DNA of 64,000 bases from Bacillota bacterium (GTDB lineage: Bacteria; Bacillota; Sulfobacillia; Sulfobacillales; Sulfobacillaceae): contig JAKBWA010000009.1 in assembly GCA_021841025.1 (NCBI GenBank), positions 1-64,000 of the forward strand, read 5' to 3'. The translations under genes were made by a program, and so were the position numbers. Of the stretch, positions 7,024 to 23,799 are shown one piece after another. A model generated the notes under the pieces. That model ran no database searches. It was not told the DNA's origin and was given only the letters and a program-made list of their open reading frames with translations. Position 1 is the first letter of the stretch. Every line of letters starts with the position of its first letter.

Positions 7024-7131
7024 TTAGTGATTACAAGAACACTCAGAGCAGTTGCATTGCTTCGAGCATCTGCAGTCTGATCCGCAATGACCCGAGTGAC
7101 ACCCATCGCAACAACAATGATTTTCAGCCAT
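7024..7131 (-). CDS. metallothionein-like Cys-rich micro-protein (35 aa)
   Basis: A 35-residue frame starting MAENHCCCDG with 11 cysteines (residues 6, 7, 8, 11, 16, 20, 22, 26, 28, 31, 33) and 4 histidines (5, 12, 15, 35). The C-x-C and C-C pairs are the signature of thiolate metal-cluster proteins. The ATG at 7131 follows GGGAGG at 10 bases, and an in-frame stop just upstream fixes the start. A different minus-strand frame overlaps it and looks like a shadow. A metal-binding or detoxifying role for Cu, Zn, Cd or Ag is inferred from composition. I do not recognise a named bacterial metallothionein family. Confidence 0.65.
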   Translation of the reverse strand: MAENHCCCDGCHSGHCGSDCRCSKQCNCSECSCNH

Positions 7132-7676
7132 TTCTCATCATCCTCCCTTCGTTCCTTAGCTAGACTTCCCCAATCGGTAAAGGATATGCACCGAAGATTG
7201 CTGGTCGGGGGCGAAATCTCTCTGATATGTCGGCTTCTGAGGGGACTTTCTTTATGGCTTGTTCAGGCCGTCGAGTCAACAACAGAAAGACGTTTGTGAA
7301 CAACGAGTTTTCCTGGCGAAAGAGGGAAGGTCAAGACGTCAAGATGGATGCTCCGATAAAGACCACGGCGTAGCCATTACACCCTTCTCATCGTCTCCGG
7401 TAAAATAGAAGAGGCAGGCGGAGGTTTGCTGAGTTATCTCGGTGTGCGGTGAAGTTTTCTTCTGAATAAGATTCATGGAGGGCCATGGACGATCTGGTTC
7501 CGCGGCTAAGGAGATTGACTCTTCTTGGCCGATTCATCTGCCAAGAACGAAAATGACTTAACACAGGCGGTGGGGCTTTCAGTCGCTATTCGAGCTTGTG
7601 TAAGCCAACAATTGGGTCAAGGGGGTTTCGAAGATTTTCGAGTGGGAAATTCTATCCGAAAGGAGCAAGGATTTTA
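7132..7676. other. non-coding stretch upstream of the methyltransferase
   Basis: About 545 bases with no reading frame that combines a ribosome site and protein-like composition. It must contain the promoters of the minus-strand Cys-rich gene and of the plus-strand methyltransferase. I see no strong -35/-10 pair and no clear inverted repeat. Confidence 0.5.
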
Positions 7677-8415: not shown

Positions 8416-8574
8416 AATTGTGTGAGTTTATAGACAGCACTGGCGCAAGAAATACGGAGACAAGACACATCAAGTCATCTTGGAGCAACACGTTATTGGA
8501 AAATGGCCGGCTTTAAGTTCAGTTCTCTAATATGGAGATCGTTTAGGGTCAATCTATGCGAGGAGGCTCTGGTT

Positions 8575-10488
8575 ATGGATATTATCCATCCCCGGGTTCG
8601 GGCAGAACTTGACGATGCCCGCGACTGGAAGAAGTATTGGGCACATGAGGCTCGACATATTGCATGGCATACGCCCTGGGAGCGGGTATATGAGAAGGTG
8701 GACGGAGTGACGCATTGGTATACAGGGGGAACTACCAATCTAGGGGCCAATGCGACCCAGTTCCACTCCCCGGATGTCATGGGTCGTGCCGCCATTATTA
8801 GCATTCGGGAAGATGGATCCGTCAGAACGTTTACCTATGCTCATTTAGCTGATGTCGTTCTCCGCTTGTCGCGCGGATTTCGTAAATTAGGCATTGGCAA
8901 GGGAGATCGAGTCGTGCTTTACATGCCCACGGGACCCGAGGCCATTTGTTCTATGCTGGCTTTGTCCCGAATTGGTGCGATTCACATGGTTGTTTTTGCC
9001 GGCTTTGGTGCTCAGGCTTTAGCTCAGCGCATTCGTTTGGTCGGCGCTAAAATGGTGATTGCCTCAGACGTGACCTGGCGCAAAGGGCGTCATGTCAATT
9101 TAGCTGCCATTGTTCAAGACGCCATGAAAGATCCCCAAAGTCCTGTTCAGAGCATTATTTGGGACTGTCGCGAAACGGATCCTCCTTCCATTCCCGGTAT
9201 TGCGCCGCATCGGCTCGCCGAGGTGGAGAATATGGGAGTTAAGACTCCATTTTGGGAAACGGAAGACGTGGAATGGATGGACTCCAACGATCCTGCCTTT
9301 ATCTTAGCGACCAGCGGAACGACCGCTCAACCCAAACTCGTAGTGCACACGCACGGGGCATATCAAGTCGGGATCATTCATACCAGCCGGGTGTTATTCG
9401 GTTTAAGGCCGACGGATATTTGGTGGACAACCTCGGACATTGGATGGATTGTCGGTCACAGCTTTATTGTTTATGCGCCCCTATTGATTGGAGCGACGAC
9501 TTTAGCTTACGAAGGTGCCTTAGATTATCCCGGACCGGAAAATTTTTACCGTATTATTCAAGAACAGCACGTCACCGGACTCTTTACTGCCCCAACAGCC
9601 ATTCGTTTATTAAACCGCTACGGCGCTCTGCCCAGCAAAGATTATGATCTTTCTTCGGTAGAGCGTATTTTTTCTGCCGGTGAGCCATTGAATCCTCCTG
9701 CGTGGAAAATGTTTCAGCAAGAGATATTTGGAAATCGGGTGCCCCTTGTCGATCATTGGTGGCAAACCGAAACAGGGGCTCCGGTTGTGGGCAATCCTTA
9801 TGGATTGGGTTTGCTGCCCATCAAACCCGGATCGGCGGCATTGTGTCTCCCGGGCTATTCGATGGAAATCAGGCGTCCTGACGGAAGCCCCTGCGAAGCA
9901 GGCGAAATCGGCAGTGTGGTGATTACCCGGCCCTTTCCGGGACTGGTGGCAAGACTGTGGGGCGATGATGGCAGCCGATATGACAGTACCTATTGGGAGA
10001 AGATTCCCGGCACATTTCTGACGGGAGACGCGGCCTCCCAAGATGAAGATGGATATTTTTGGTTTCGGGGACGATCAGATGAGGTGCTGAAGATTGCGGG
10101 ACACCGGATTGGCACAAGTGAGGTTGAATCAGCCTTGTTGAAACATCCTGCCGTGTCGGAGGCTGGCGTTACGGGATTGCCAGACGACCTTCGAGGCGAG
10201 GTTATTTTGGCATTTGTTGTCTTGCGCCCCGGAGAGGACCCTAAAGAGGGGCTGGCTCAAGAACTCAAGGATACAGTTCGACGGGAATTGGGTCCTGTGG
10301 CGGTTATAGGGGGAATCGAGTTTGTTCCGAACTTACCCAAGACACGCAGCGGAAAGATCATGCGGCGGTTATTGAAATCGGTTGTTTTGGGCCAAGACAC
10401 CGGGGATATTTCCAGTATTGAGGATCCCACCGCGGTGGATGCCGCGAGAAGCGCATGGGAGAATGAAGCTCACAAGTCAGAAAACTAA
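8575..10488 (+). CDS. acsA: acetyl-CoA synthetase (AMP-forming)
   Basis: A 637-residue adenylate-forming enzyme that activates acetate with ATP and CoA (EC 6.2.1.1), possibly also propionate. Visible motifs are the P-loop-like ATSGTTAQPKLVVHTHG (about 243), the ACS-specific WWTTSDIGWIVGHSFI region (about 282), WWQTETG (about 396), GRSDEVLKIAGHRIG (about 498) and the C-terminal SGKIMRR with the catalytic, acetylatable lysine (about 592). The ATG at 8575 has GAGGAGG 8 bases upstream; the frame is open from 8503. It is monocistronic, and an inverted repeat lies ahead of it. Confidence 0.9.
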   Translation: MDIIHPRVRAELDDARDWKKYWAHEARHIAWHTPWERVYEKVDGVTHWYTGGTTNLGANATQFHSPDVMGRAAIISIREDGSVRTFTYAHLADVVLRLSRGFRKLGIGKGDRVVLYMPTGPEAICSMLALSRIGAIHMVVFAGFGAQALAQRIRLVGAKMVIASDVTWRKGRHVNLAAIVQDAMKDPQSPVQSIIWDCRETDPPSIPGIAPHRLAEVENMGVKTPFWETEDVEWMDSNDPAFILATSGTTAQPKLVVHTHGAYQVGIIHTSRVLFGLRPTDIWWTTSDIGWIVGHSFIVYAPLLIGATTLAYEGALDYPGPENFYRIIQEQHVTGLFTAPTAIRLLNRYGALPSKDYDLSSVERIFSAGEPLNPPAWKMFQQEIFGNRVPLVDHWWQTETGAPVVGNPYGLGLLPIKPGSAALCLPGYSMEIRRPDGSPCEAGEIGSVVITRPFPGLVARLWGDDGSRYDSTYWEKIPGTFLTGDAASQDEDGYFWFRGRSDEVLKIAGHRIGTSEVESALLKHPAVSEAGVTGLPDDLRGEVILAFVVLRPGEDPKEGLAQELKDTVRRELGPVAVIGGIEFVPNLPKTRSGKIMRRLLKSVVLGQDTGDISSIEDPTAVDAARSAWENEAHKSEN

Positions 10489-20999: not shown

Positions 21000-23411
21000 C
21001 TAAAATACTGGAGTTTCCGGCAACCGGGCAATTTTTAAGAGCAAAGAGTTGGATACGACCGAAACGGAACTCATCGCCATGGCAGCACCCGCTAAAATGG
21101 GCGAAACAATACCAAATGCAGCCAGAGGGATCATAATGACATTGTAGATCAGAGACCAAAATAGATTTTGGCGAATCTTTCCTAAAGTCTTGCGACTGAG
21201 GGATAGGGCTCTTATCACCCCATAGATCTCCGGTGCCAACAGAGCCACATCGGCTGTTTGAAGAGCAACATCGGCACCTGTTCCTACCGCCAGACCTAGG
21301 TCCGCCGTGGCCAAAGCCGGTGCGTCGTTAATGCCGTCGCCAACCATTAAGACTTTGTAGCCAGCGGTTTTTAAGTCCGTAATCACCCGCGACTTGTCTG
21401 TGGGCAAAAGTTCTGCATAGACGTGATCGATGCCTAAACTTCCCGCAATGGCCAAAGCCGCCTTATTTTGGTCCCCTGTGAGCATAGCGGTCTCGATGCC
21501 TTGGGCATGCAAGGCGGCTATGGTGGCGGGGGCATCATCGCGTAGGGTATCGGCCACAATAATAGCGCCCGCCAATGCGTTGTCAGAGCCAATCCAAATG
21601 ACACTGGCTCCTTGATTCTGCCAGGTGTGAACGGTGTTCTGGATTTGCCGGGGGACCGAGACTCCATATTGTTCCATGAGTCTAAAGTTTCCGATTACCA
21701 CTTCTTTCTCCGCAACATATCCCACCATGCCCAGTCCCGGTTCGGTGTAAACATCCTCGGCAGTCCACTGTGGGGCTCCTTGGCTTTTTGCGCCCCGGCA
21801 AACGGCTTCGGCTAAAGGATGAGTGGATTCTTTTTCTACGGCCCAAGCCAGCGCTAACACCTGGGAGGACGTAAAGGAACCGTAGGCTATGACGTTTTGC
21901 ATATCCGGTTTGCCGCGTGTGAGGGTCCCGGTTTTGTCAAATGCCACCATATTAATATGGCTAAAAGTTTCCACAGCTGCCCCGTTGCGGAACAGTATGC
22001 CTTTTTTCGCTCCCATGCCCGAACCAACCATAATGGCCGTTGGGGTAGCCAGCCCCAGAGCGCAGGGGCAGGCCACAACCAATACCGCCACACCGTCAAG
22101 CAATGAAGAGCGCCAGTGTCCGGTAGCTAAACCCCAAGTGATGAAGGTGATCAGAGCGAGTATTATCACAACGGGAACAAAGATGTTGGCAATAGCATCT
22201 GCATAACGCTGGACTGGAGCCTTGGTGCCCTGGGCTTCTTCAACGGTTTTGACGATCTGAGCTAAAGTGGTATCCCGTCCCACTTTTTCGGCTCGGATTT
22301 CCAAAGTCGAGGTGCCGTTCAACGTGCCCGCTGTGACTGTGTCCCCCACTGTCTTATCATGCGGCAAGACTTCTCCTGTAAGCATGGATTCGTCGACTGA
22401 TCCCCGCCCCAGAGTGACGGTACCGTCTACACCAAAGCGCTCTCCGGCCAACACTTGCAAAATGTCCCCCGGTTTCACGCTGTCAATAGGAATGGGTTCC
22501 CATTCTCCTTGATTATTGAGTCGCCGAGTCTCTTGAGGACGCAAGGCTAGCAGTTCCGAAATGGCCTGGCTAGTCCGTCCCTTGGCTACGGCTTCCAGGT
22601 ATTTGCCGACGAGGACCAGGGTGATCACTGTGGACGAGATATCAAAATACAAAGGACCGTGAACGGTTAAGTCATATACAGACAGCCCCCATGCGGCCAA
22701 AGTCCCCGATGCCACCAAGACATCCATATTGGCGTTTTTGTGGCGAATATTCATCCACGCTCGGCGAATAAATCCCCATCCAGGCCCCCACTCCACGAGA
22801 GTGGCGAAAATCCCTAACATGACCCCTTGGCCAAGCCACGAAGGGCCGATGCGAAAGATCATATGAATCATGCCAATCCAGATCGGAATGGTGAGAATCA
22901 CCGATAAAATGAGCCGGTTTCGCGCTGCCGTCATTTCATGAGAGCGAGGGCTGAGTTCATCGGATTTTAAGGCTTTAACACTATAACCGGCATTTCGCAA
23001 AGCTTCCGTCAAATGTTCGGCGTCAGCGACTCCGCGGATTAAATCCGCAGAAAGAATCCCACTCACCGCATTGATTTGAACATTGTCAATCCCGGCAACG
23101 GATTGGGCAACTTCCAGGGCGCGCTGGCGCAAGGGTTCTTCGTCCATTCCCGATAGGCTCCAGGACATATGATCCTTGCGCACGGTATACCCTAGTTCAG
23201 TGATCGTATCGACGAGTCTCGGCATGGTGACAAGACTAGGGTCAAATGTGATGTTGGCCCGCTCCAATGCTAAATTCACGTGGGCATCGACGCCATCGAG
23301 TTGATGCAAGGCCTTTTCAATGCTGTTGACACACGTTGCGCATGTCATCCCCCCAATGTCCAAATTAATGGATTGGCCGCGGGAGTTGGAATCAAGGGGA
23401 CTGGTGGCCAT
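21000..23411 (-). CDS. copA: copper-exporting P1B-type ATPase CopA
   Basis: An 803-residue heavy-metal ATPase that pumps Cu(I) out of the cytoplasm. The N-terminal metal-binding domain carries GMTCATC (Cys 24 and 27). A second HMA-like fold (about residues 83-145) lacks any CxxC. The transmembrane ion site is CPC at 448-450, the phosphorylated aspartate is D492 in DKTGTLT, and GDGINDAPAL completes the hinge. Its start lies inside csoR (20-bp overlap) with GAAGGA upstream, so translation is coupled. It is repressed by CsoR until copper rises, by analogy with known csoR-copA operons. Confidence 0.93.
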   Translation of the reverse strand: MATSPLDSNSRGQSINLDIGGMTCATCVNSIEKALHQLDGVDAHVNLALERANITFDPSLVTMPRLVDTITELGYTVRKDHMSWSLSGMDEEPLRQRALEVAQSVAGIDNVQINAVSGILSADLIRGVADAEHLTEALRNAGYSVKALKSDELSPRSHEMTAARNRLILSVILTIPIWIGMIHMIFRIGPSWLGQGVMLGIFATLVEWGPGWGFIRRAWMNIRHKNANMDVLVASGTLAAWGLSVYDLTVHGPLYFDISSTVITLVLVGKYLEAVAKGRTSQAISELLALRPQETRRLNNQGEWEPIPIDSVKPGDILQVLAGERFGVDGTVTLGRGSVDESMLTGEVLPHDKTVGDTVTAGTLNGTSTLEIRAEKVGRDTTLAQIVKTVEEAQGTKAPVQRYADAIANIFVPVVIILALITFITWGLATGHWRSSLLDGVAVLVVACPCALGLATPTAIMVGSGMGAKKGILFRNGAAVETFSHINMVAFDKTGTLTRGKPDMQNVIAYGSFTSSQVLALAWAVEKESTHPLAEAVCRGAKSQGAPQWTAEDVYTEPGLGMVGYVAEKEVVIGNFRLMEQYGVSVPRQIQNTVHTWQNQGASVIWIGSDNALAGAIIVADTLRDDAPATIAALHAQGIETAMLTGDQNKAALAIAGSLGIDHVYAELLPTDKSRVITDLKTAGYKVLMVGDGINDAPALATADLGLAVGTGADVALQTADVALLAPEIYGVIRALSLSRKTLGKIRQNLFWSLIYNVIMIPLAAFGIVSPILAGAAMAMSSVSVVSNSLLLKIARLPETPVF

Positions 23412-23799
23412 GGCTCATTCCTTCTTTCATGATGGTTTGCACATTGTCCGGTGTTTGTTCACTATGACAATGACACAGGGGATGTTCGACTAAGGGGGAT
23501 AGGGCATGATCGGGTCCTAACGCTTCCCCCGCGGAAAAGGGCATATATTTCATAGCCCCTATCAGTTCTTCTACGATAGGAGTGCCCATACCGTCTTTCA
23601 TCGCATCCTGAACGCAGGTCAGTAAATGGTTGCGAAGCAAAATGCGCTGCACCTGTTCCAAACTGGCTTGAACAGCGGAAACTTGCTTCATAATGTTGAC
23701 ACAGTAGATGTCCTGATCAACCATGCGGCGAATGCTTTCGAGATGGCCGGCAATGACCTTGAGCCGTAATGCGGCATCTTTTTTCAATTCTGGCTCCAT
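23392..23799 (-). CDS. csoR: copper-sensing repressor CsoR
   Basis: A 135-residue DUF156 repressor, all helical, that releases DNA on binding Cu(I). The ligand triad Cys33, His58, Cys62 (in IYCVNIM and LRNHLLTC) is the CsoR signature. After about residue 90 there is an unusual 45-residue tail with HPLCHCHS and SHGHQ, which may add metal ligands. GGGGGAG lies 5 bases before the ATG. First gene of csoR-copA-YHS. Confidence 0.9.
   Translation of the reverse strand: MEPELKKDAALRLKVIAGHLESIRRMVDQDIYCVNIMKQVSAVQASLEQVQRILLRNHLLTCVQDAMKDGMGTPIVEELIGAMKYMPFSAGEALGPDHALSPLVEHPLCHCHSEQTPDNVQTIMKEGMSHGHQSP

Follow-up and report, generated by a model that had tools for sequence, protein, structure and literature searches.

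A 35-residue, eleven-cysteine metallothionein-like family with a predicted, gpr-type forespore promoter in the class Sulfobacillia

Introduction

In this work, we describe a family of very small cysteine-rich proteins that is likely to be made in the forespore and to hold soft metals in the spore interior, either as a protection or as a metal store. One of its members is encoded in the window, by which we mean the whole stretch of 64,000 nucleotides of a Bacillota bacterium that was analysed. The corresponding open reading frame (ORF) is a real gene and, judging from its sequence and that of its relatives, it is best described as part of a new metallothionein-like family that is invisible to current protein models. 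Given the gpr-type, predicted forespore promoter that precedes it, this gene does not obviously belong with the ordinary genes that metals induce. The features of the window that are considered here are collected in Table 1.

Table 1. Features of the window discussed in the text
Feature	Position	Strand	Basis
35-aa Cys-rich metallothionein-like protein	7024..7131	(-)	ATG start, TAA stop; homologues in 28/154 class genomes
Shine-Dalgarno GGGAGG	7142..7147	(-)	read from sequence; ten bases 5' of ATG
-10 element AAGTCTA, gpr-type, of a sigma-F-like predicted forespore promoter	7161..7167	(-)	top gpr-matrix match
-35 element GCATA, 17 bases from -10	7185..7189	(-)	pattern and gpr-matrix match
CopA-type copper-translocating P-type ATPase	21000..23411	(-)	TIGR01511 570 bits, cut-off 397
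CsoR-family metal-sensing repressor, in operon with copA	23392..23799	(-)	PF02583 E=5e-20

The gene and its family

The translation of the gene is MAENHCCCDGCHSGHCGSDCRCSKQCNCSECSCNH*, and the composition given in the preliminary description (35 residues, 11 Cys and 4 His) agrees with it, as does the cysteine pattern C-C-C-x2-C-x4-C-x3-C-x-C-x3-C-x-C-x2-C-x-C. The start and the ribosome site proposed there hold as well: the frame opens one codon ahead of the ATG (EMAENH...), which is fixed as the start since an upstream stop closes the frame at that point, and purine-rich sites comparable to its GGGAGG are found 5' of most homologues. Cysteines make up 31% of the protein, a share that falls in the range of about 20-35%, carried in CxC/CC motifs, which is that of the metallothionein class. 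On its two sides are a gene for a LysR-type regulator and one for an O-methyltransferase-like protein, both unrelated to metals, and no strong intrinsic terminator was found 3' of it.

Searches of the tblastn type found homologues in other genera, and a profile HMM built from 15 of them has matches in 28 of the 154 genomes of the class, in 14 of its 88 genera. The HMM had no match outside the class among 398 genomes drawn from the phylum, and a plasmid search for the family returned none either. The distribution is patchy even at close range: the gene is missing from all seven other genomes of its genus that were analysed, and in those of these relatives that possess the neighbouring O-methyltransferase, neither a copy nor a remnant of the ORF could be found upstream of it. 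These seven genomes do carry SASP genes and, where they are complete, gpr, so the gene is not essential for sporulation. Since most of the spore-forming members of the class lack it, it is an accessory gene and not a core sporulation gene.

All 11 cysteines are invariant across the 28 aligned family sequences and little else is kept, the histidines included, which gives the consensus CCC-x2-C-x4-C-x3-C-x-C-x(3-6)-C-x-C-x2-C-x-C. When the codons of 24 equal-length cores are compared, those for cysteine show no difference at positions 1 and 2 and a 46% pairwise difference at position 3, while the non-cysteine codons differ by 56-67% at every position. Cysteines that remain invariant while their third codon positions drift indicate selection on the cysteines of a protein. 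The conservation of the pattern under drifting DNA, which had been put forward as a check on the preliminary description, is thus borne out, and so is its central claim of a small metallothionein-like protein. Three members (L032, L036 and L040, on G033:C5, G029:C80 and G032:C23) form a second family type, with a longer x6 loop between Cys 7 and Cys 8; this second type, which is devoid of a clear forespore promoter, may be regulated differently.

This conservation bears directly on the possibility that the ORF is a chance product or a cysteine-rich artefact, such as the frame of a TGC/CTG repeat. Artefacts of this kind do occur, as the matches to cysteine patterns in public genomes include many poly-Cys repeat frames: among the 116 loci listed by a scan for nine spaced Cys codons, in a listing filled by TGC/CTG repeat frames, a single one (L139) is real. 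However, repeat frames would hardly keep 11 of 11 cysteines in 28 diverged sequences with synonymous changes in the Cys codons, together with start codons that have ribosome sites and, mostly, a shared promoter. When the window was shuffled 30 times with its dinucleotides preserved, the most cysteine-rich 28-aa stretch over all frames held 5 to 8 Cys, against 11 in the 35-aa ORF, and as the shuffles peak at 8 Cys and never reach 11, the ORF is not a product of chance. The artefact reading, to which we give practically no weight, is already refuted by the conservation of the family.

Relation to known metallothioneins

The window protein has no Pfam match at E<=10 and no NCBIfam match, and the 28 members give only stray matches to eukaryotic metallothioneins, at E values of 0.05-0.1. 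The bacterial metallothioneins SmtA and BmtA have conserved His ligands beside their cysteines, and SmtA is of the zinc type. The 35-aa proteins are likewise small and cysteine-rich, with many CxC motifs, and probably cytosolic, as are SmtA/BmtA and MymT, so that they may work in a similar way. In contrast to these, they have a CCC start and a fixed 11-Cys pattern, their histidines are not conserved, and their gene has a forespore-type promoter and does not adjoin a metal-repressor gene. The early statement that the cysteine pattern does not match that of SmtA is in line with the absence of any match to PF02069, the SmtA/BmtA model; for MymT the comparison was made through NCBIfam models alone and gave no match. 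Membership of the Csp proteins can be set aside too, since 35 residues are too short for their four-helix bundle and there is no match to that family.

When the family profile is compared with solved structures, it picks the wheat Ec metallothionein (2kak, E=0.024) and the vertebrate metallothioneins 2mrb, 2mrt and 2mhu (E=2.7-4.1). They are picked because their cysteines share the spacing of the last six of the family, C-x-C-x3-C-x-C-x2-C-x-C, which is that of a vertebrate metallothionein domain; the N-terminal CCC-x2-C-x4-C is extra in the 35-aa family. These similarities are driven by composition and not significant as homology, and the shared spacing is probably a convergent likeness of design.

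A gpr-type promoter upstream of the family

The region upstream of the window gene carries, on the minus strand, the sequence GCATA-N17-AAGTCTA, whose end at 7161 is 29 bases 5' of the ATG. The motif was first spotted by eye in the family upstreams, as GCATA/GAATA and CANNCTA separated by 17-18 bases. Written as GHATR-N17/18-NANNCTA, it is present in 22 of the 31 family upstreams and in 11 of the 13 family genera for which the upstream sequence is complete, against 3 of 366 upstreams of other ORFs at the same loci; two of these three are located just downstream of a family gene, so the family promoter lies inside their upstream region. A first-order Markov control gives 0.3%. With spacers of 10 to 27 bases, matches occur at 17, at 18 and once at 19 only, and the reversed and complementary strands of the family upstreams contain none. 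This arrangement, fixed in spacing and strand, is that of a promoter, in which GHATR corresponds to the -35 element of the forespore sigma factors known from work in B. subtilis. About 9 of the 31 upstreams have no strict match, among which are the copper-linked L205 (spacer of 19) and the three loci of the second type.

As the motif was noticed in the metallothionein family itself, it was also examined, within the same taxonomic family, upstream of genes whose compartment is known, namely gpr (PF03418) and the alpha/beta SASP genes (PF00269), and gpr provided an independent confirmation. The motif precedes 23 of 26 gpr genes and none of 31 SASP genes. A scoring matrix trained only on gpr promoters, applied to both strands of the 64-kb window, gives its best score to the site before the 35-aa ORF (19.1 bits, the runner-up having 16.1). 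Scored with this matrix, 18 of the 31 upstreams of the family lie above the 99th percentile of 334 control upstreams and 8 above their maximum, with an AUC of 0.925 for family upstreams against controls, while SASP upstreams do not stand out. The gpr-trained matrix and the spacing and strand controls agree with a promoter that matches those of known forespore genes of this lineage. The second-best site of the window, at 9521 (-), is inside an acyl-CoA synthetase-like gene (8503-10488) and is probably due to chance.

The gpr gene depends on sigma-F in C. difficile and on sigma-F and sigma-G in B. subtilis, and the SASP gene sspA belongs to a later forespore stage (PMC3789829, PMC3789822). Having a gpr-type promoter in common, gpr and the 35-aa gene are probably expressed in the same compartment and at the same time, their proteins being unrelated, whereas the SASP genes of this lineage have promoters of a different kind. 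By likeness to gpr, the sigma factor would be sigma-F, possibly also sigma-G, and the forespore is probably where the protein is made. As for the SASP upstreams themselves (loci L207-L236), 19 of 31 carry GNGTA-N17/18-NATANTA, and the two forespore promoter classes, gpr-type and SASP-type, look separable by sequence alone.

The host has the sporulation genes SASP, gpr and spoIIR. SASP genes are present in all 34 genomes of the taxonomic family and in all 28 metallothionein-bearing genomes, but also in most of those without the metallothionein, so this co-presence alone proves little. The spoIIR gene was unusable as a promoter control, since it sits behind a preceding reading frame; at loci L267-L293 it appears to follow directly on a frame ending in ...SQAQVSRLEKAAL..MRKY, which resembles the end of sigF and suggests a single operon.

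The promoter also bears on the idea that the protein binds no metal and is a disulfide-linked structural component of the spore, in the coat or exosporium, like CotY/ExsY or CsxA. The cysteine-rich proteins of coat and exosporium are of greater size and are usually made in the mother cell. Some that self-assemble are known at spore surfaces (PMC7333573, PMC8546674), and a promoter of the sporulation type would suit such a role. However, the promoter is of the forespore type, and of the mother-cell patterns, sigma-E matches none of the 31 family upstreams and sigma-K only one. In addition, a protein of 35 residues with tight CxC motifs and the spacing of vertebrate metallothioneins fits a metal cluster better than a lattice, and its nearest relatives adjoin copper operons. 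We therefore find a structural role very improbable.

Neighbouring genes and the link to copper

The neighbourhoods of 31 family loci were compared. Most of them adjoin metal-unrelated genes that are conserved only within a genus, and neighbours such as GH31, CtaB, CO dehydrogenase, PBP and MurA (names given partly by eye) rule out a metal-gene neighbourhood as the general context of the family. Some relatives are nonetheless linked to copper. The two copies closest to that of the window, with 63-66% identity (L021 on G031:C396 and L022 on G008:C77), are preceded, on one strand and in one order, by genes for a copper P-type ATPase, an SCO1/redoxin protein and a DUF4396 membrane protein. In L021, where ORF calling resolved this stretch, genes for a CopZ-like HMA protein and for a membrane protein that is CcdA-like (the latter assigned by eye, with no Pfam match) are found between those of the ATPase and SCO1. 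These two islands are related and found in different genera, and L021 adjoins an integrase and a TnsA-like gene and L022 a serine resolvase, neighbours which suggest that both are probably mobile. At L205, genes for a cupredoxin and a two-component system precede the copy, CopA and a CsoR-family repressor being encoded further away, and at L023 a sulfocyanin-like cupredoxin and a two-component system are nearby.

These operons of the relatives, and not the neighbours in the window, are the reason for the copper link, and they point to Cu(I) as the most likely metal, zinc or cadmium being also possible. The copper resistance genes that had been attributed to this organism are indeed there, in the form of a csoR-copA operon at 21000-23799, but at 14 kb from the 35-aa gene they are context only and not linked to it.

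An alternative to a copper trap would be a thiol redox buffer, or a zinc store for germination, which we hold to be doubtful, yet worth keeping in mind. Any 11-Cys peptide could serve in this way, and it is zinc and cadmium metallothioneins (wheat Ec and vertebrate) that the profile weakly resembles. On the other hand, the metal context, where present, is that of copper, and the lack of conserved histidines contrasts with the zinc-type SmtA.

The same operons could also mean that the protein is a vegetative metallothionein, induced by copper via CsoR or a two-component system, the forespore-like promoter being secondary or misread. This would account for the copper operons next to the closest homologues and to one or two further copies, but most copies have no metal gene nearby, and the gpr type, which is the only recurring promoter element, is kept even by the copper-island copies L021 and L022. 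Moreover, the housekeeping (sigma-A), sigma-B, ECF, sigma-E and SASP-type patterns that were tried match none of the 31 family upstreams. A vegetative role thus seems unlikely to us.

A proposed role in the spore

Our preferred explanation remains a forespore-made metallothionein. The 11 invariant cysteines would form a metal-thiolate cluster. During sporulation, the early forespore factor sigma-F, and possibly sigma-G as well, would drive transcription of the gene within the forespore, and the protein would be laid down in the spore interior. There, in a dormant spore that is without ATP, the ATP-driven efflux of metals would be idle, and the peptide could retain soft metal ions passively, with Cu(I) as the most likely of them and Zn or Cd as possible others. 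With pumps idle in dormancy, a passive thiol trap would make sense in metal-rich surroundings. The outcome would be the protection of the dormant core and of the outgrowing cell, or a small metal store kept for outgrowth. A more specific version makes this the first spore-specific metallothionein family, in which the forespore would be pre-loaded, under sigma-F, with an 11-Cys copper mini-protein for the survival of the dormant spore in copper-rich surroundings, and whose gene would also be carried about by mobile copper-resistance islands without losing its spore promoter; the chances of this version seem to us evenly balanced.

The open-access literature that was searched, from which most subscription papers are absent, yielded no description of a forespore metallothionein. 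What comes closest is the Csp3-CotA copper route in the mother cell of B. subtilis, in which Csp3, a four-helix bundle made under the mother-cell sigma-K, feeds the coat laccase and is dispensable for copper tolerance (PMC9484137). Csp3 is likewise cysteine-rich and tied to sporulation, and it is a copper store; here, in contrast, the protein has 35 residues and a forespore-type promoter.

The handling of metals by dormant spores, whose efflux pumps are idle, has been little studied, and a family of 35 residues with a forespore promoter makes this question directly testable. It would also be relevant to biomining, if these organisms are the metal-leaching acidophiles that their gene content suggests.
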